Made by a program: the position numbers and the translations under genes
Notes under the pieces: model-generated
Told to the model about the DNA's origin: nothing
Seen by the model: only the letters and a program-made list of their open reading frames with translations
The model's database searches: none
Assembly: GCA_938010435.1 (NCBI GenBank)
Contig: CALLUS010000008.1
Location: 1 to 64,000, forward strand
Length of the DNA: 64,000 nt
Origin: an uncultured Rhizobiaceae group bacterium
GTDB lineage: Bacteria; Pseudomonadota; Alphaproteobacteria; Rhizobiales; Rhizobiaceae
Direction of reading: 5' to 3'
Shown: positions 25,794 to 58,700 of the stretch, in pieces
Layout of the letters: the number at the start of each line of letters is the position of its first letter
Numbering within the stretch: position 1 is the first letter of the stretch

Positions 25794-25868
25794 GCTGTTG
25801 TAGCTCAGGGGTAGAGCACGTCATTGGTAATGACGAGGTCGGTGGTTCAATTCCACTCAACAGCACCA
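25794..25868 (+). tRNA. tRNA-Thr (anticodon GGT)
   Basis: 75 nt with the CCA encoded. The acceptor stem GCTGTTG pairs with CAACAGC (discriminator A). The D-arm is GCTC-AGGGGTA-GAGC. The anticodon stem CGTCA/TGACG encloses loop TTGGTAA, giving anticodon GGT. The T-arm GGTGG-TTCAATT-CCACT closes with one wobble pair. A single gene with no neighbouring tRNA and no sign of integration at its 3' end. Confidence 0.97.
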
Positions 25869-25925: not shown

Positions 25926-26849
25926 TTAGCAGCTAGAGGTGCATAAGATTTGTTCGTCTTCCTGGTCGATGGGCACATTTGGATCAGTAATGCCATCGTT
26001 GTCATCATCGAACGGATCAATAGGAAGTTCGAATTCGCGTTGACCACTTTCAAAACCACCTGGTTCCACATCTGCAAAATTCACAGGCGGTCCATTGGGT
26101 TCTGAACGGAGGAAGAAATTCAAATAATCGAGCATGTCTTTGGTCAATTTGAAGGGCCCTATTGGAGCTGCCCCCGCAGATGGCACAAAAACCGCATAAC
26201 TTGGACGCACCAATGTAATGCTACCTGCAGAATTGGAGACACGAATGATGCCAGCATTGTCGAGTGTATTGCCACCTGCCCGAGGACCTCGCAAAACTGT
26301 TATACTTGCACCGGTTGGATTTGCGCCAACCGTACTAATACCCGCCAATCCCGCCAGTGCGATAGCATCTTCGCCAACAATGCCTTCAAAGAAAGTTCCG
26401 CGAATGCCAATAGTGGCAGATGGTGTGGAAACCGACGCGTTGGTTGGGTTTGCCTTACCAATATTGCCGCTCATGAAACGGAAAGCGCCTTTGGCTACTT
26501 TCGCGCTCACTTGCCCTTGAGACGTGGTGGGATCATAAACAAATTTATCGATAGTCAGCGATGCGTTTTGGCCGACTGTAAATGTCGTTCGGTCCAACAA
26601 TAAAATTTGCAGCGCACTGTCTTCTTTGGTCAGCACTTTGTCTTGCAGATTTATAGCGTCTCGCACTTGCGCTTTGCGGCTTGCACCCGATGTGGTGACA
26701 AAAACTTTACCGCGCACGGCTGAACTTGTGCCAATTTTTGGTGCAGCCCAGACAGTCGCAGAAAAGAATGTTGCAACAAGAGCAAATGACACAGTTGATG
26801 CACCCAATGTGCGATTGATTTTCGATGGAGTGTGGGAATTCATTTTCAT
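25926..26849 (-). CDS. FecR-domain exported protein
   Basis: 307 residues from ATG 26849, with GAGG 9 nt upstream; an earlier TTG would overlap the previous gene. A long Sec signal peptide ends near VWA-APKIG. The FecR domain (about 60-170) reads KVLTKEDSALQILLLDRTTFTVGQNASLTIDKF and then ATIGIRGTFFEG, a family landmark. Here it is a free periplasmic FecR without an anti-sigma transmembrane part, so it is not a classical sigma regulator. The tail is Asp/Glu rich (DPFDDDNDGITDP, a calcium-loop-like string). It is co-transcribed with the barrel gene upstream (17 bp gap) and divergent from the CHASE2 cyclase. Confidence 0.88.
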   Translation of the reverse strand: MKMNSHTPSKINRTLGASTVSFALVATFFSATVWAAPKIGTSSAVRGKVFVTTSGASRKAQVRDAINLQDKVLTKEDSALQILLLDRTTFTVGQNASLTIDKFVYDPTTSQGQVSAKVAKGAFRFMSGNIGKANPTNASVSTPSATIGIRGTFFEGIVGEDAIALAGLAGISTVGANPTGASITVLRGPRAGGNTLDNAGIIRVSNSAGSITLVRPSYAVFVPSAGAAPIGPFKLTKDMLDYLNFFLRSEPNGPPVNFADVEPGGFESGQREFELPIDPFDDDNDGITDPNVPIDQEDEQILCTSSC

Positions 26850-26866
26850 ATCGATTTCCTCACCAC

Positions 26867-28192
26867 TCAAAATGAAATTCGTTTGGTGAACAGAATATCA
26901 CCAGATACATTGTTGTAATCACGCAAAGACACGTTCGAATTGTTGTTGGTGTAAGAAACGCCGACTTGCAAAACGATGTCGGAAATTGCTTCCGGCAGTT
27001 CCACATCAAAGTTTGCAAAAAGCGTTTCTAGCGGAGCACCAACTGCGGCTCGTGCGAAAAAACGCCGGTCTTCACGTGCTTCAGTGAATGAATAGAAATT
27101 ATCCGGTTCTTCGTACTCACGATCGGTGTATTGGGTCTGCAAAGACAGGAACCGCCCTTTTCCAAGCAAAGTCAACGAGCGCGCCTGCACGCCTGCGCTT
27201 TTGTAAGAATAGCCGTCGAAATCTGCATCCTTGTCAGCATAAAGGCCTGTTAGTGTAAATTTCTGTTTGTCAGTTGGTCTCCACTGCAAACCGACAGAGC
27301 CAGACTTCAACCAGCCATCCCGCTGATTTCCCACTGCACTAAACGATGTAGCTTCATAGTTTTCGTAAGCCGCGCGACCATGGATCAGAAGCTCAACTTG
27401 GGAAGATAATGTGTAAGAGAGTTTCGCTCCGCCACCAAATTGGGTGCGGAAACGATCATGTTGAAGATAAGATACGCTGCCAAAAGCATACGGCGACACT
27501 ATTAAATTGGGGCCATGGAATGCCGCACCAACCTTTGCGCTAGACGTAATTAGGTCCGTCTGATCCACATCGAAAAACTCATTGAACTGGGTATTGGTTT
27601 CAGCAAACAGAAAGTTACCAGAACTTCCAATATCCAGTTCTGCGCGAAACTTAGCACCGCCAGTCACGGCCGCATCACTCTCTTCTTCATTTGCAGAGGC
27701 AATTGCTGCTCCTGCATCGTCATCCCCTACAAAGGCTGGATTGCTGTCATAGCGCGCACCAAGGGAAAACCGGGCAAACATGCGAAGTGATTTTGTTCTG
27801 TTTTTAGCCAGCGCCAAATAACGCACCCGATCTCGTTCCTGTTGTGAGGGCAGGTCGCGGTTTTCGAGCAAGCGTAATTCGCGTTTTGCACCTTCTAAGT
27901 CACCCAAACGATAGAGAACCACACCGTAGAACAAACGCGCTGAATCCCAATCAGGTTCGAGCAAAACCATGCGTTCCAAAGCAGCTGCAGCTTGTTGCAG
28001 ACGACCTGATGCAACTTCTTGGCGAGCATATTGCAGATTGAGTTGAAGATTATCCGGCTGCGCCAAAATCTGATCAAATGTCACCGTTTGCGCACTGACG
28101 GATGTGGCGCAGATGAAGACAGTTGCTGCAAGCGCAAGTTTTTGAAATTTGGACTTTATCCCAACAGACCGCAATTTCGGGTTTTTTCTCAT
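26867..28192 (-). CDS. TPR plus outer-membrane beta-barrel protein
   Basis: 441 residues. A signal peptide ends at SVSA-QTV. TPR-like helices follow (about 40-130): LNLQYARQEVASGRLQQAAAALERMVLLEPDWDSARLFYGVVLYRLGDLEGAKREL. The remaining 300 residues alternate polar and aromatic residues as in a 14-strand-type barrel, ending in KRISF with the terminal aromatic recognised by the BAM machinery. The layout resembles the surface-lipoprotein-assembly-modulator (Slam/DUF560-like) architecture, but identity is not certain. It is the first gene of the operon with the FecR protein and starts 75 bp from the centre of a CRP site. Confidence 0.82.
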   Translation of the reverse strand: MRKNPKLRSVGIKSKFQKLALAATVFICATSVSAQTVTFDQILAQPDNLQLNLQYARQEVASGRLQQAAAALERMVLLEPDWDSARLFYGVVLYRLGDLEGAKRELRLLENRDLPSQQERDRVRYLALAKNRTKSLRMFARFSLGARYDSNPAFVGDDDAGAAIASANEEESDAAVTGGAKFRAELDIGSSGNFLFAETNTQFNEFFDVDQTDLITSSAKVGAAFHGPNLIVSPYAFGSVSYLQHDRFRTQFGGGAKLSYTLSSQVELLIHGRAAYENYEATSFSAVGNQRDGWLKSGSVGLQWRPTDKQKFTLTGLYADKDADFDGYSYKSAGVQARSLTLLGKGRFLSLQTQYTDREYEEPDNFYSFTEAREDRRFFARAAVGAPLETLFANFDVELPEAISDIVLQVGVSYTNNNSNVSLRDYNNVSGDILFTKRISF

Positions 28193-28259
28193 CGTGTTGG
28201 TTCCCTGCCAGCGCTACGCGAAACTTAGATTGTGTTACGCTGAACACCAATGCAGTGTG

Positions 28260-28275
28260 TGTGAGGAATCTCACA
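28260..28275. promoter_or_regulatory. Perfect CRP-type operator in the divergent cyclase/barrel promoter
   Basis: TGTGA (28260-28264), six-base spacer, TCACA (28271-28275), exactly the consensus read by CRP-family proteins. Its centre is 40 bp from the CHASE2 cyclase ATG (28308) and 75 bp from the barrel ATG (28192). A -10-like TATTTT at 28285-28290 would put the operator over the cyclase -35. On the other strand, -10-like words near 28229-28237 would put it close to -42. The geometry therefore suggests repression of the cyclase and activation of barrel/fecR; the promoters themselves are inferred. A second dyad (GTGTT-N6-AACAC, 28232-28247) lies beside it. Confidence 0.7.
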
Positions 28276-28307
28276 GCAACCACATATTTTATGTCATTTA
28301 GTCAATT

Positions 28308-30548
28308 ATGCGCCTTTTAAGCAACAAATCAGTGGTTATTTGGCTGTTTGGGCTTTCCGTTGCGTCATTCATTTGGCTATTGTCAATCATCCCTTCACAG
28401 CCACTTAGACCTTTCAACACGATGGTGTTTGACACTTATCAGGTGATGAAGCCTCGCCCGTGGGGTGGCTCAGATGTGGTTATTGTTGATCTGGATGAGA
28501 CCTCAATTAAGCGTGTGGGACAGTGGCCATGGCCACGCAACATCGTGGCGAACCTCACCAAAAAACTGGGCGATTTGGATGCGGCAGCTATCGTGTTTGA
28601 TATGGTGTTTGCTGAAGAAGACAGGACTTCTCCTCTCAAAGCAATTAAAGGGCTAACCAAAGCAGGTGCGCGGATACAACTTCCTGAAAAAATAGACATG
28701 CTGGACAATGATGCGGTTTTGGCCAGCGTTTTTAAACGATTTCCCGTGGTGACCGGGTTTATATTTTCCGATGATGGAACAGATATTCCGCCCTCTCCCA
28801 AAGCGGGCACCGGGCAAAGCGGAACCATGCCTTCTTCATTTATGAAACGTGACGTTATGGCGACCCGCAATTTGCCTACACTAGATGAGGCGGCGTCTGG
28901 CATAGGGACTTTCAATTTCGCCTCATCTGATCAACGTGATACAGTGGTGCGTAAGGTACCTTTGATGCAAGGGGTTGATGGGAATTTCCATCCCACTTTA
29001 GCTGCTGAAGCTTTGCGCGTGGTGCAAGGAGCGGGCGGGTTTAAAATTAAGTCCAGTGATGGAAGTGGCGAACTCTCAGGTGGAAAAATAACGCTCGTAT
29101 CTTTGCAGATTGGCGCATTGGAAATTCCAACCAATGGAGACGGTGCTATGGAGATTTATCACTCTTCGCCTGAATCAAAGCCAACGGTTTCTGCCAAAGC
29201 GATTTTGTTTCCATCTGAATTTGGCTGGACCAACGAAAAACTTTCCAATGCCTTTGCCAACCATATTGTTTTAATTGGCACCTCTGCAGCAGGCCTGTTG
29301 GATTTACGCGCAACACCGCTCAGCCCAGTTGTCGCTGGTGTCACCGTTCATGCAGATATTCTCGATCAAATCATCACGGGCACTTTTATCAACCGTCCCG
29401 ACTATGCGCAGGGTTTAGAACTGACAACGGCTATTTTTCTAACCCTATTGTTGCTCGTCTTCCTGCCAAAATTAAACGCAACCGGTGATGCTCTGCTCGC
29501 CAGTCTGTTGATTGCCCTTGTGATTTTCGCAGGTTGGTATGCGTTCACAAGCCACCAATTGTTGTTCAGCCCTGTCTTGCCTATCCTGTCACTTCTGGCA
29601 GCTTACGGAGCGGGTGTTGGCGCTGATCTTTTGATTACAGAAAAAGAAAGCAAGTTTGTTCGTGATGCATTCAGCCACTACCTCTCACCCGCCATGGTGA
29701 GCCGCCTTGCTGAAAACCCGGAAGCTTTGAAACTGGGTGGTGAAGACAAAGAGCTGACACTTTTGTTTTGTGATATTCGTGGTTTCACATCTTTGTCCGA
29801 AGGTCTCGATCCAACAGAGCTGACAGAACTGTTGAACGATTTTCTCACTCCCATGACAGATGCATTGATGAAGGAAGGTGCGACAATCGACAAATATATG
29901 GGCGACGCCATAATGGCTTTTTGGAACGCGCCTATTGATCAGGAAGACCACCGAGAACGAGCTGTTCGCGGCTTGATGGCCATGCGCCATGAACTTGTGA
30001 AGCTGAATAAAAAAGCCAATCGTCCAATCGAAATCGGCATTGGCTTGAACAGCGGGCCTTGTTGTGTGGGTAATTTGGGGTCCGCACAACGTTTCAACTA
30101 TTCAGCCATTGGCGATGCGGTAAATGTGGCTTCACGGATTGAAGGACTGACCAAACAATATGGTCTCGACAATTTGCTGGCTGCTGAAACCCTAAATGAC
30201 ATCAATGATTACGCTGTTTTAGAAATTGATCGTGTAGGCGTGGTCGGGCGCAAAGAACCGCTTACTGTGTTCACGATTGTTGGTCAAAACGATTTGAGAA
30301 GCAATCGGCAATTCCTAAAACTGACCGAACAACATGCTGATATGTTGGATGCATATCGCGTTGGAGATATTGAACAAGCTTTAGTTTATATGGCACGCGC
30401 CAATCGTAGTGCTGATGAGCTTTCTCTATCTGAACACATTCCACCCTTGCGCAAACTTTACGCATTGTACGGGGAGCGTTTTGCAAGTTTCCGTGAAACG
30501 GGCGTGCCTGAAAATTGGGACGGTGTTTATCGATCTACTTCGAAATAG
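28308..30548 (+). CDS. CHASE2-domain membrane adenylate cyclase (class III)
   Basis: 746 residues. An N-terminal membrane helix (about 8-28) leads to a periplasmic CHASE2 domain (about 35-350: VVIVDLDETSIKRVGQWPWPRNI, VFDMVFAEED, IVLIGTSAAGLLDLRATPLSP, GVTVHADILDQI). Three membrane helices follow (about 368-445) and then a class III cyclase domain (about 470-640). Metal aspartates are in FCDIRGFTSL (Asp489) and MGDAIMAFW. IGDAVNVASR carries the Asp typical of adenylate specificity and the Asn/Arg transition-state pair. It should make cAMP in response to an envelope signal. It is divergent from fecR/barrel with a perfect CRP operator between them. Confidence 0.95.
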   Translation: MRLLSNKSVVIWLFGLSVASFIWLLSIIPSQPLRPFNTMVFDTYQVMKPRPWGGSDVVIVDLDETSIKRVGQWPWPRNIVANLTKKLGDLDAAAIVFDMVFAEEDRTSPLKAIKGLTKAGARIQLPEKIDMLDNDAVLASVFKRFPVVTGFIFSDDGTDIPPSPKAGTGQSGTMPSSFMKRDVMATRNLPTLDEAASGIGTFNFASSDQRDTVVRKVPLMQGVDGNFHPTLAAEALRVVQGAGGFKIKSSDGSGELSGGKITLVSLQIGALEIPTNGDGAMEIYHSSPESKPTVSAKAILFPSEFGWTNEKLSNAFANHIVLIGTSAAGLLDLRATPLSPVVAGVTVHADILDQIITGTFINRPDYAQGLELTTAIFLTLLLLVFLPKLNATGDALLASLLIALVIFAGWYAFTSHQLLFSPVLPILSLLAAYGAGVGADLLITEKESKFVRDAFSHYLSPAMVSRLAENPEALKLGGEDKELTLLFCDIRGFTSLSEGLDPTELTELLNDFLTPMTDALMKEGATIDKYMGDAIMAFWNAPIDQEDHRERAVRGLMAMRHELVKLNKKANRPIEIGIGLNSGPCCVGNLGSAQRFNYSAIGDAVNVASRIEGLTKQYGLDNLLAAETLNDINDYAVLEIDRVGVVGRKEPLTVFTIVGQNDLRSNRQFLKLTEQHADMLDAYRVGDIEQALVYMARANRSADELSLSEHIPPLRKLYALYGERFASFRETGVPENWDGVYRSTSK

Positions 30549-33387: not shown

Positions 33388-34086
33388 ATGGATACGCTGG
33401 ATGAATTCCCTCTTCTGAAAGGGATGAACAACGAACAGCTTAAACAGTTTGGTGACCGGTGTTTATGGCGCAACTATGAGGCTGGCGAAACCATTATCGA
33501 CCATCAGGAACTATCAAAGGAAATTCGGTTTATTTCCCATGGAACAGTGCGTGCTTTGGTGCGCATGATTGAAGGGCGCGAAGTGATCCTAAATGATCAC
33601 GGGCAAGGCGACTTCTTCGGACATTTGGCGGCCATAGATGATGGCCCGCGCTCGGCCAGTATATTAGCGATCTCCAATTGCCGTATCTGCATAATGCCAA
33701 AAAGCGTGTTTCAGGAAATTGTAACAACCGTTCCAGAAATTGCGTGGCGCGTTATGAACCATCTGGCCAACGATATTCGACGTTTGTCGCACCGGCTATC
33801 TGAATTCAGCTTTCTCAAAGCAAAACATAGGCTCTATGCCGAGTTGCTGCGTCTATCTCGCCCGCGCACGAACGGCCCTTCTTCATCTCATGGCCACCAT
33901 AGAATTATCAGTCCCGCTCCGCTTCAAAGCGATATTGCCGACCGCATTTCCAGCCGCCGTGAAATCGTTTCCCGCGACATGAAAGAGTTGGAGCGTTTGG
34001 GGATTCTGGAGCGCACGCGTGGTGGTTTAGTTATCCTGCAACCAGACACATTGACCAACATGGCCGCAGAAGGCTGGGCTTCTTAA
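33388..34086 (+). CDS. Crp/Fnr-family transcriptional regulator with altered cNMP pocket
   Basis: 232 residues. Cyclic-nucleotide-binding beta-roll at about 8-115, dimer helix at about 120-145, winged helix at about 165-225. Aligned by eye to E. coli CRP, the phosphate-binding cassette keeps GDFFG and PRSAS (Arg82/Ser83 positions) but has His where CRP has Glu72 (GHL instead of GEL). The recognition helix SRREIVSRDMKELE keeps the Arg180, Glu181 and Arg185 equivalents that read TGTGA half-sites. It could bind the operator at 28260, perhaps responding to another ligand. There are no Cys residues of an Fnr-type iron-sulfur cluster. It is a single gene 87 bp downstream of the ClpP-like gene. Confidence 0.88.
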   Translation: MDTLDEFPLLKGMNNEQLKQFGDRCLWRNYEAGETIIDHQELSKEIRFISHGTVRALVRMIEGREVILNDHGQGDFFGHLAAIDDGPRSASILAISNCRICIMPKSVFQEIVTTVPEIAWRVMNHLANDIRRLSHRLSEFSFLKAKHRLYAELLRLSRPRTNGPSSSHGHHRIISPAPLQSDIADRISSRREIVSRDMKELERLGILERTRGGLVILQPDTLTNMAAEGWAS

Positions 34087-54592: not shown

Positions 54593-55515
54593 TAATGGCC
54601 TCCTCCTTCACCCAAGGAGAACAGTTCGGTTGGCACTGTGACAAGATCCCATCCCAAACGAATACAAACAGCCAGAACGATCAGACCCAGTAAGGCACGC
54701 AATTGTTCGCCGCGCAATTTTTGTCCGGCTCTTGCGCCAAACTGCGCTCCGATCACACCACCAACCATCAAGATTAAAGCCAATACGATATCAACGGTTT
54801 GGTTGGTTGCTGACTGCGCAATGGTTGTGAACATGGTCACGAACATGATTTGGAATAGCGAGGTGCCGATGACCACATTGGTGGGCACACGCAAGATATA
54901 AATCATCGCCGGTACCATGATGAAACCACCGCCCACACCCATAATGGACGCCAACACACCCACCAGAAAACCAAGAACAAGAACTGGAATAACACTGAGA
55001 TAGAGTTGCGAACGATGAAATCTCACTTTGAATGGCAGTTTAGCAATCCATGTCTGCTGTGTCGGCAAAGCTGCAGGTGTTGCATCCGGATTGCGGCTTT
55101 TGCGCAAGGCATTCAAGCTTTCAACAAGCATAAGAGAACCAATGGTTCCCAGAAACACCACATACAAAATAGAAATTATGAGATCGAGCTGCCCCGCTTC
55201 CCGCAGCGAGGAGAACAGTACAACGCCCACTCCCGATCCAGTAATACCGCCAATCAAAAGGACAATGCCGAGTTTTATATCAAGTGTGCCCTTTCGCAAG
55301 TGCACCAAGGCCCCAGAGAAAGAAGAAGCGACAATTTGGTTGGCTTCGGTTGCCACGGCAACTGCCGGAGGAATATTGTAGAAAATCAACAGTGGCGTCA
55401 TCAAAAAGCCACCGCCAACGCCGAACATACCTGACAGAAACCCCACACCTGCGCCCATGCTGAAAAGCACAAGAACATTGACCGACATTTCGGCGATAGG
55501 AAGGTAAAGGTTCAC
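54592..55515 (-). CDS. Sulfite exporter TauE/SafE (TSUP) family permease
   Basis: 307 residues with about eight hydrophobic segments. The two TSUP repeats have GAGVGFLSGMFGVGGGFLMTPLL and GFLVGVLASIMGVGGGFIMVPAMI, the duplicated signature. It probably exports sulfite or organosulfonate. The start is GTG 55515, consistent with the conserved N-terminus NLYLPIAEMSVN. It heads the minus-strand group TauE - TIGR02186 - DUF3429. The 189-bp gap upstream contains a CCGTTT/AAACGG dyad without T run. Confidence 0.9.
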   Translation of the reverse strand: MNLYLPIAEMSVNVLVLFSMGAGVGFLSGMFGVGGGFLMTPLLIFYNIPPAVAVATEANQIVASSFSGALVHLRKGTLDIKLGIVLLIGGITGSGVGVVLFSSLREAGQLDLIISILYVVFLGTIGSLMLVESLNALRKSRNPDATPAALPTQQTWIAKLPFKVRFHRSQLYLSVIPVLVLGFLVGVLASIMGVGGGFIMVPAMIYILRVPTNVVIGTSLFQIMFVTMFTTIAQSATNQTVDIVLALILMVGGVIGAQFGARAGQKLRGEQLRALLGLIVLAVCIRLGWDLVTVPTELFSLGEGGGH

Positions 55516-55704: not shown

Positions 55705-58700
55705 TCAAGTTTGTAAACCGAGTGCTGAGAGAAGTTTTCCATCCACCTTACCTGTGACAGGAATGCCTGCTGAACGTTGGAATTCACGGATGGCGTTGCG
55801 GGTTTTAGGGCCCATCACGCCATCTGGTGTTCCAACTTCAAACCCACGGCTGTTCAACATTGCTTGCGCTTTTTGAACAAGACCCTGTGCGCCATCGGCC
55901 GCAGATTTAGCACCACCAGACCCACTGCCCAACCATGATTTGGGTGCCGTCACCCTGTTGGCCTCTTCGACCAGTTTCTTTGGCTTCCATCCGTTGACCA
56001 CTTCGCGTGCTGCATCGAGATCATCAGGGTCCATTGCATTAGCAACTTCATCACGTTTTTTAGAGGCGTCAGTGTCGCCGGTTTTGGCCGCGAGTGCGAA
56101 CCACTTGTAGGATTCTTTCAAGTTCTGAGGAACACCTTGACCTTGGCCATAGAGAATACCCAAGTTGAACTGGCTGTCTTTGATACCAAGATCAGCAGCT
56201 TGCTGAAACCATGTTACCGCAGTGTCAATATCTGCTTTCTTTTCCGGCGGATTGCCCATGGCATTGATCACCGCCAGATTATGCATAGCACGAGCATTGC
56301 CCTGAGCGGCGGCCTTTGAATACCAATCACTGGCCACGCTAAGGTCACGTTTTACACCAATGCCTTTTTCATAAAGACTGCCAATAGAATATTGAGCAGG
56401 TGCGAAACCCTGATTGGCTGCAACTTCAAACCATTTCGCAGATTCACCCATATTGCGTTTTGTGTCTTTACCATCGGAATAACGGATACCCAATTGGAAT
56501 AACGCTTTTGAATCACCACTAGAAGCTGCTGCAACCAATGCTGCAGGCCCTGCATTGGATGGCACATCCACCTGACCCTCAGTTGCAGGTGTTTCAACGT
56601 CAACAGGTTCTTCTGTATTGTTTTCAATAGGAGCAGATGCCTGAACAGCATCGCCTTCCGGGGCGGCGTTGGTATCAGCAGGTGATTTATCTTCTAAAAC
56701 ACTCTCTGCTTTGTCTATCACTTCGCTAACCGTATTTTCGACACCATCACCGACGGAACGAACCACACGATTTGCGCCGTCAACCACGCCTCCTCCAATA
56801 TTGGCCGCTTCGTCGACGACACCATCCAAGGTACCTTCAACTGATGATGCAGTGCCATCTACAGTTTGTTCAATGGCTGGACTATTCAATTGTGCTACCG
56901 GCGTTTCATCGCCGCCTGCAAACATGGAATAGCCTTTAAGTGCAACGATCGCCAGCAACAAAGCTGCAGCTGTCATCACCACAGGTTTGCGCAACCGATC
57001 AATATTCAATCCGGAAAGAACACCGCCGGCTTTACTTTTCAAACCATCAAGCTTCGGTTTTGCGGATTTCCCAGCAGACTTTGTTTCTTCGCGAACGGCA
57101 TTCATTTCAGCCGTGGTTGCTTGCAACGCCCGGCGTGCAGCTGAGACAGCGTCTGTACGCATTTCATCAGTTGGCACTGCATCATCAAGAGACCCGGCAG
57201 CAGCACCCAGATTCGCTTTGGTTGCATCCAATTTAGCTGTGGCTTGTTGAACCAGTTTTTCAATATCTGGTGCGCCAGAGCCCGGTTCAAGTGGGCTATG
57301 GTCTTCCATTGTTTCAGGCTGCAAAGGAAGCGCAGCTTCAATATGATCAGTTGGATCAACCGAAGGGGCTTCAACGAAGCCTGTTTCCACAGCGGCACGT
57401 TGGATAGCACCCATATCTTCGGAAACAGTATCGGCCAAACCATCAGCCGCAAAAGCCGACATATCCGATTGGGTTTCCGGTTGCAATTGATGTGCAGCAA
57501 CTGTTGCTGCGGGTGAAACAAATGTGGCCTCACGTGTTTCGGCGACCTGAGCAATTGACCCTTCTATTGTGTTGAGACGATCAATCACATGGTTCAATGT
57601 TGAATGAACTTCACTGACAGTTTGCGCGTTGTTGGCATTTCCAGCTTCGGACACAGCCTGCAAGGATTGCAGATCCGCTGAAAGGGCTGAAATAATTTGG
57701 CCCGCTTCGCTGGATGATCCCATCATGGAGACAGCTTGCTGTGCAGCTTGTTGGGCGGCTTCCAGAGAAAAGCTTTGATTTTCAACCAACTGATTTTCGA
57801 TTTGACCCAGACGCGCTTCCATTGGTGCGAAATCAACATTAATCTCGCCTGTTGCAACACCTTCTGGCTGTTTGTTCATCGTGCGAATAATTTGACCGAT
57901 CTGAGCCTCCAGATTGGACATTTGAGCTGCTGTTGAATTGACGTTGGCAGCCTCTTCCACACGCGCATAAAGCTGTTGGATTTGCGCTTCGATCGTCTCC
58001 ACGCCAGCATGAGGCTGCAAGGACTGCTGCTCAATACGATCTGACAAACGCTGAATTTGTTCTTCAAGCTGTTGAGTTTGTATTTGACCGGCATTGTGTT
58101 CCATTTGTGTGGTCAACGTGCGCAATTGTTCTTCGATCACGCCAATATCCGGTGCCGCAAACATGGCGCTTGCACCACCAAGGTCGCCATTTTCCGCGTA
58201 TTTCTCGAATGACCCAAGGCGTTCCGTCAAACCGTCAATGCGAACAGCAAGTTGTTCAAATTCAGCCGCGTTATCACGCTGGGAAATCATATCAATTGTG
58301 CGGCCGAGTTCAGACATACGTGCCTCAACACGATCAACCGCAGTCAGATCCACTTCAGGCGCTTTATTGCCAGAATTGGAGACTGCCACCAAACCGCGTG
58401 CAATTTCATCCATACGGGCTTCAAGAGCACCCAAATCCTCAGCTGTAAGTCCAGCCCCAACCGCGGCCGGCTGTTGTGCCATTTGAGCGAATGCCTCGAT
58501 TTTAGCCGACATATCTTGCAAACGTTCTTCCAAGCGGGACATGGCCAAAGTCTGAGGAAGGTCTTCTACAGACATGCGGAGCGTATCGAGTTGTGTTGTG
58601 AGATTTTCCACAGCAGGAGCAATTGAATTGCCGGATTGCAAAGACATTTGATCGATGCCTTGGGCCAGCGCGTCAATGCGCGCGGAGACTATTCCAACCT

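Follow-up and report, generated by a model that had tools for sequence, protein, structure and literature searches.

Does the palindrome lying between the gene of a membrane adenylate cyclase and two divergently transcribed envelope genes act as an operator for a Crp-family protein, and, if so, in which direction would cAMP act on the cyclase that makes it? We addressed this question for a stretch of 64,000 nucleotides from an uncultured Rhizobiaceae bacterium (hereafter the window), using the rest of its genome and related genomes for comparison. The locus comprises the following features.

25926-26870, minus strand: FecR-domain protein, after the barrel gene (Pfam FecR, 2.9e-9)
26867-28192, minus strand: TPR and SlipAM-type outer-membrane barrel protein, divergent from the cyclase (Pfam SlipAM, 1.4e-12; TPR_19, 9.5e-7)
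28260-28275, palindromic, no strand assigned: CRP-type operator TGTGA-N6-TCACA, an exact match whose ten bases are invariant in the relatives G008 and G013
28308-30548, plus strand: CHASE2 class III adenylate cyclase of 746 aa (Pfam CHASE2, 7.6e-49; Guanylate_cyc, 1.3e-19)
33388-34086, plus strand: Crp-family regulator, C8 type (Pfam cNMP_binding and HTH_Crp_2)

The reading that we prefer, to which we give a probability of about 0.5 as a whole, is that positions 28260-28275 would be a working CRP-type operator common to two divergent promoters, bound at high cAMP by a Crp-family protein with E. coli-like recognition residues. Bound Crp would most likely activate the cyclase promoter from a class II position centred at about -41, with a transcript starting on the cyclase ATG or directly beside it (leaderless), and the CHASE2 cyclase would thereby amplify its own cAMP signal, while the same Crp dimer would probably co-control the barrel/FecR promoter on the other side. 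Within this model we infer the binding, the identity of the Crp protein, the sign of the regulation and a leaderless cyclase transcript. The operator in the divergent cyclase/envelope promoter region is itself probably real, and it is well supported because its footprint is conserved and because it recurs at two other loci of the genus.

The gene assignments agree with the surroundings given to the site in the preliminary description, as the list of open reading frames and the Pfam domains place it between a CHASE2 cyclase and divergent barrel and FecR genes. The product of 28308-30548 carries both the CHASE2 domain and the class III cyclase domain that characterise CHASE2 adenylate cyclases, and its cyclase domain matches solved adenylate cyclases (best match 6fht, 2.9e-40). 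On the other strand, the listed FecR frame and the end of the barrel gene overlap by 4 nt. A tRNA gene is found at 25794-25865, just past the 3' end of the FecR gene.

We then asked how much the presence of the site says. The word TGTGAGGAATCTCACA at 28260-28275 matches all ten fixed bases of TGTGA-N6-TCACA and is the single exact occurrence in the window, in agreement with the preliminary description, which had seen it once in the places scanned; it is separated by 32 nt from the cyclase ATG and by 67 nt from the divergent barrel gene. The chance expectation per window, put at about 0.06 in the preliminary description, was about right, being 0.11 from dinucleotide shuffles and 0.07 from half-site frequencies. 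At least one exact match occurred in 11 of 100 shuffles of the window, and the lone exact operator is weak evidence, by itself not significant. Allowing up to one mismatch gave three sites in all against 3.22 expected by chance. The two one-mismatch words lie at 54826-54841 and 58597-58612. In the whole genome (3.57 Mb), we found 11 exact operator words and none of the reversed control pattern, about 4 being expected if the half-site frequencies of the window apply genome-wide; across 15 genomes of the genus there were 72 operator words and 18 of the reversed control. Placement relative to genes covered 62 of these 72 perfect sites, the other 10 being those of G002, G004, G005, G010 and G014. 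By the simple ORF rule used for this placement, 8 of the 11 sites of the own genome fall within genes and 3 are intergenic, the site at 28260-28275 among them; the rule is crude, as the transpeptidase site of G008 falls within an extended ORF.

Conservation in orthologous intergenic regions, by which the preliminary description had wanted its site to be judged, holds in the close clade and gives out beyond it. Within the genus, 8 further genomes have full-length cyclase orthologues with at least 51% identity; G005 was excluded as its match was a 3' fragment alone (residues 530-746). The closest relatives, G008 (85% identity) and G013 (84%), likewise have a perfect operator at -48 relative to the cyclase ATG; it is missing or degenerate in the 6 more distant of the 8 orthologues. 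G012 has just a degenerate palindrome (8 of 10 bases) at -20, and in G001, G003, G006, G009 and G010 the stretch between -500 and +100 relative to the cyclase start contained no operator with up to two mismatches. Two of these genomes without the cyclase operator, G001 and G006, still carry a Crp orthologue about 3 kb from the cyclase. A wider survey took the best 80 of 569 relatives, and 5 of these 80 cyclase loci had too little upstream sequence. A perfect operator was found at 2 of the 75 usable loci, which we take to be G008 and G013, and an 8-of-10 match at 5 of the 75, which we read as background. Wide conservation of the cyclase operator is therefore rejected, and the distribution points to a local gain or a local survival. 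Among the same best 80 of 569 loci, relatives of the barrel and FecR genes are directly divergent from the cyclase at 8, three of which are the counterparts of G001, G008 and G013; others have relatives of the barrel, FecR or Crp genes nearby.

The three-species alignment of the intergenic region resolves into islands separated by spacers, as follows.

28224-28237, minus strand: barrel-side island, candidate -10 region (TAACAC, 22 nt from the operator core), 13 of 14 columns invariant
28238-28247: spacer of constant length, 0 of 10 columns invariant
28248-28277, no strand assigned: island containing the operator, 28 of 30 columns invariant
28278-28287: spacer of constant length, 4 of 10 columns invariant
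28288-28304, plus strand: island TTTATGTCATTTAGTCA, candidate cyclase -10 region, 17 of 17 columns invariant

Such a pattern would be expected of a promoter-operator-promoter unit. All ten fixed bases of the operator are invariant compared with 65 of the 105 other columns, and ten out of ten at that background rate corresponds to p ~0.008 when columns are treated as independent. We regard this conservation, in a footprint known from three closely related sequences only, as stronger evidence for the putative operator than its mere presence. A short ORF, 28291-28320 (ATG TCA TTT AGT CAA ...), overlaps the cyclase start out of frame. Its first codons lie within the 17/17 island, and a leader peptide is an alternative cause of the conservation there.

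We also looked at the other intergenic operators of the genome, and results showed that all three recur, perfect, in both G008 and G013. The second lies upstream of a gene for a YkuD L,D-transpeptidase (loci L004, L184 and L173). This transpeptidase operator, L004:1501-1516 in the own genome (C5:190911), is followed by a TAAAYT hexamer at a gap of 21 (the gap being the number of nucleotides after the operator core), and is kept in G008 and G013. The third is beside a LysE-family gene, before a candidate small RNA (loci L089, L182 and L049).

L089:1384-1504 (own contig C14, about 137483-137611), minus strand: candidate terminator-ended small RNA, core CGTCGATCGCCCCTGAACG

Searching the 15 genus genomes for this core with at most one mismatch recovered it in 7, and a perfect operator was located 82-94 nt upstream in 7 of 7, a count that is not fully independent as the core was derived from loci found by their operator and a diverged copy lacking an operator would escape the search. 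The aligned candidates form two predicted stems, one with an intrinsic-terminator-like end, and 13 of 25 predicted pairs have changed on both sides with pairing kept, which supports the two stems. No Rfam family matched at gathering score for the two loci tried, and over three loci there were two weak sub-threshold matches. A covariance model of the RNA reached E <= 0.001 in 3 of 297 genomes drawn evenly from the order, one of them the own genome, which is the only genus member shown with a match in that search. The two other matches (29.4 and 29 bits) were read as chance terminator matches, and no operator with up to two mismatches occurs in the 300 nt upstream of either. Across the small RNA and transpeptidase sites, variation in the operator is confined to its inner six bases and the outer ten are fixed, which fits CRP-type recognition. 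The genus thus appears to use TGTGA-N6-TCACA elsewhere, at a limited number of promoters, with the one of the candidate small RNA among them.

Promoter geometry bears on the sign of the regulation. Class II activation by CRP places the centre of the site at about -41.5, which equals a spacing of 20-21 nt from operator to -10 element. We searched for -10 elements as weighted matches to TATAAT, with weights of our own choice. Within gaps of 18-22, 8 of the 10 small RNA and transpeptidase promoters, which are orthologues at two loci and not independent cases, have their highest-scoring hexamer at gap 20 or 21; of the two exceptions, G001 ties at 19 and 20, and in G007 gap 18 scores highest. Over the same range on the cyclase side, TTTAGT (28297-28302) is best at gap 21 in all three species, and on the barrel side gap 22 is best in two species and gap 20 in one. 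Extending the range to gaps 0-34 makes the picture less clear-cut, with gap 7 (mean 3.7) above gap 21 (mean 3.5) on the cyclase side, which is AT-rich and has hexamers besides TTTAGT that score as high, and with gap 25 best on the barrel side (3.5). The stretch 28100-28420 gave no canonical sigma-70 promoter, a result of little weight as 0.6 would be expected by chance. The cyclase side, with a spacing like that of the small RNA and transpeptidase promoters, looks class II activated, and possibly leaderless, since with gap 21 the transcript would start at or beside the cyclase ATG. By eye, no Shine-Dalgarno sequence was seen before this ATG.

The preliminary description had drawn a different conclusion, in which Crp-cAMP sits over the -35 of the cyclase, represses it, and activates the barrel and FecR genes from about -42. 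This model is possible but doubtful. On the barrel side, TAACAC is conserved at a constant 22 nt from the operator, but it fits less well than the cyclase side, being 1-2 bases off the usual small RNA/transpeptidase spacing and scoring 2.8 compared with 3.5 for TTTAGT. On the cyclase side, hexamers at gaps 7, 9 and 16 would place the operator over the -35 or the spacer, yet most of the gap-7 hexamer falls within the poorly conserved spacer, where 4 of 10 columns are invariant. A position over the -35 is also the one that class II activation uses. The sign proposed for the cyclase is not well supported, the spacing to the conserved -10-like hexamer matching that at the small RNA and transpeptidase loci, and neither is the activating sign assigned to the envelope genes. 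We consider positive feedback more likely than feedback repression. There is a precedent for a Crp-induced cyclase gene in S. meliloti, where cyaF2 is described as a probable direct target of the Crp-family regulator Clr in the consulted portions of PMC5498481.

Which Crp protein would read the operator? A protein search with the C8-type regulator of the window returned two paralogues in the genome, of C4 type (45% identity) and C5 type (33%). A family search also placed a fourth HTH_Crp_2 protein (C11) over the cut-off and two more below it; the alignment took C8, C4 and C5. Each of them has the equivalents of CAP R180, E181 and R185, the residues given for CAP-DNA contact in the consulted part of PMC10127613. 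The preliminary description had named the protein of 33388-34086, along with the other CRP proteins of the genome, for binding assays with and without cAMP. The DNA-reading residues of this protein are indeed kept, in a CRP-like recognition helix (RRE..SR), but cAMP-dependent binding by it is doubtful, as His replaces the pocket Glu72. In its phosphate-binding cassette the Gly, Arg and Ser are retained and Glu is His in the own genome (G000), G008 and G013, so that it departs from the Gly-Glu ... Arg-Ser pattern of cAMP receptors. The C8-type proteins of G001, G003, G006, G009 and G012 have the pocket Glu, as do the aligned C4- and C5-type proteins, and among the eight C8-type proteins aligned the change to His is confined to the three species with the cyclase operator. 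At the equivalent of Thr127, the own genome has Leu in C8 and C4 and Ile in C5, so that the full E. coli pocket is absent from all three. G007 has the small RNA preceded by an operator and no C8-type Crp among its matches, which suggests that the C4-type protein can probably use the operator; G006 shows the opposite pattern, but this genome is only 77% complete. C4 is the better candidate for a cAMP-dependent binder. A variant of the preferred model, in which a cAMP-responsive Crp drives the leaderless cyclase from the class II operator and C8 recognises this operator too, independently of cAMP, and by competing sets the threshold, making a self-amplifying switch with a modulator, seems unlikely.

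Readings without a Crp protein, or without an operator, fare less well still. It is quite unlikely that the palindrome serves another transcription factor, for instance one reading TGTGAG-N4-CTCACA; the inner G and C are conserved here and so is the flanking GCAGTG, but the small RNA and transpeptidase sites fix TGTGA and TCACA and let the inner positions vary, and the genome has Crp paralogues with a matching helix. That the word is a chance match within a promoter region conserved for something else is very unlikely. It would be in line with the matches in shuffled windows, with the 8 coding sites among 11 by the ORF rule, and with the absence of the operator in 5 of the 8 full-length orthologues and its degenerate form in one, but it would leave ten of ten fixed bases invariant, within a 28/30 island between spacers at 0/10 and 4/10, as a coincidence. 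Most improbable is an RNA hairpin in a leader transcript, since, although all three species preserve the 6-bp stem TGTGAG/CTCACA (change-free, which leaves covariation silent either way), the ten bases are found again at other promoters, where their distance to -10-like hexamers is fixed, and 28100-28420 holds no terminator-like site, a weak point with 0.4 expected by chance.

The preferred reading, a CRP-type operator with positive feedback on the cyclase, can be set beside known systems. E. coli CRP has the same ten-base operator TGTGA-N6-TCACA, and its R180, E181 and R185 are conserved in the Crp proteins of this genome. In E. coli, the cyclase gene cyaA is controlled by its own product through negative feedback. 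Here, on the contrary, the cyclase is a membrane CHASE2 class III enzyme, the envelope partners are different and the geometry favours activation. The closest likeness is to the S. meliloti circuit of CHASE2 cyclases, NsrA, the FecR protein SMc02177 and Clr, alike in kind as it also joins CHASE2 cyclases, a barrel, a FecR protein and a Crp-family regulator, as described in the consulted portions of PMC5498481 and PMC13001267; there, the outer-membrane barrel NsrA is reported to be needed for signal perception. Judged by its components, the module resembles CyaD1/FecR/NsrA/Clr with a different operator. The Clr core given in the consulted part of PMC10127613, GTNNCNNNNGNNAC, does not match the operator, and a Clr-box identity of 28260-28275 was rejected; the same source describes a Clr without the E181 equivalent, unlike the Crp of the window and its two paralogues, which keep it. 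This core occurs at 19 places in the window compared with 11.6 expected (1 of 100 shuffles reaches 19), none of them at the operator. The Clr-controlled cyclase named in the consulted accounts is cyaF2, not a CHASE2 cyclase. A cluster in Campylobacterota likewise has a CHASE2 cyclase beside FecR and TPR genes, proposed to form one pathway, but belongs to another phylum, includes a phosphodiesterase and has no operator described in the consulted portions of PMC9239204. The portions consulted of the literature on CHASE2 adenylate cyclases, Crp and promoters describe no such operator, and a literature search on TGTGA sites in Alphaproteobacteria gave no hits.

Where CHASE2 cyclases have barrel and FecR partners, they are believed to be sensors of extracellular signals, and whether cAMP feeds back on the synthesis of its own sensor decides between a graded and a switch-like response. 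With a textbook operator replacing the Clr-box of S. meliloti, this locus would offer a compact test of such feedback.
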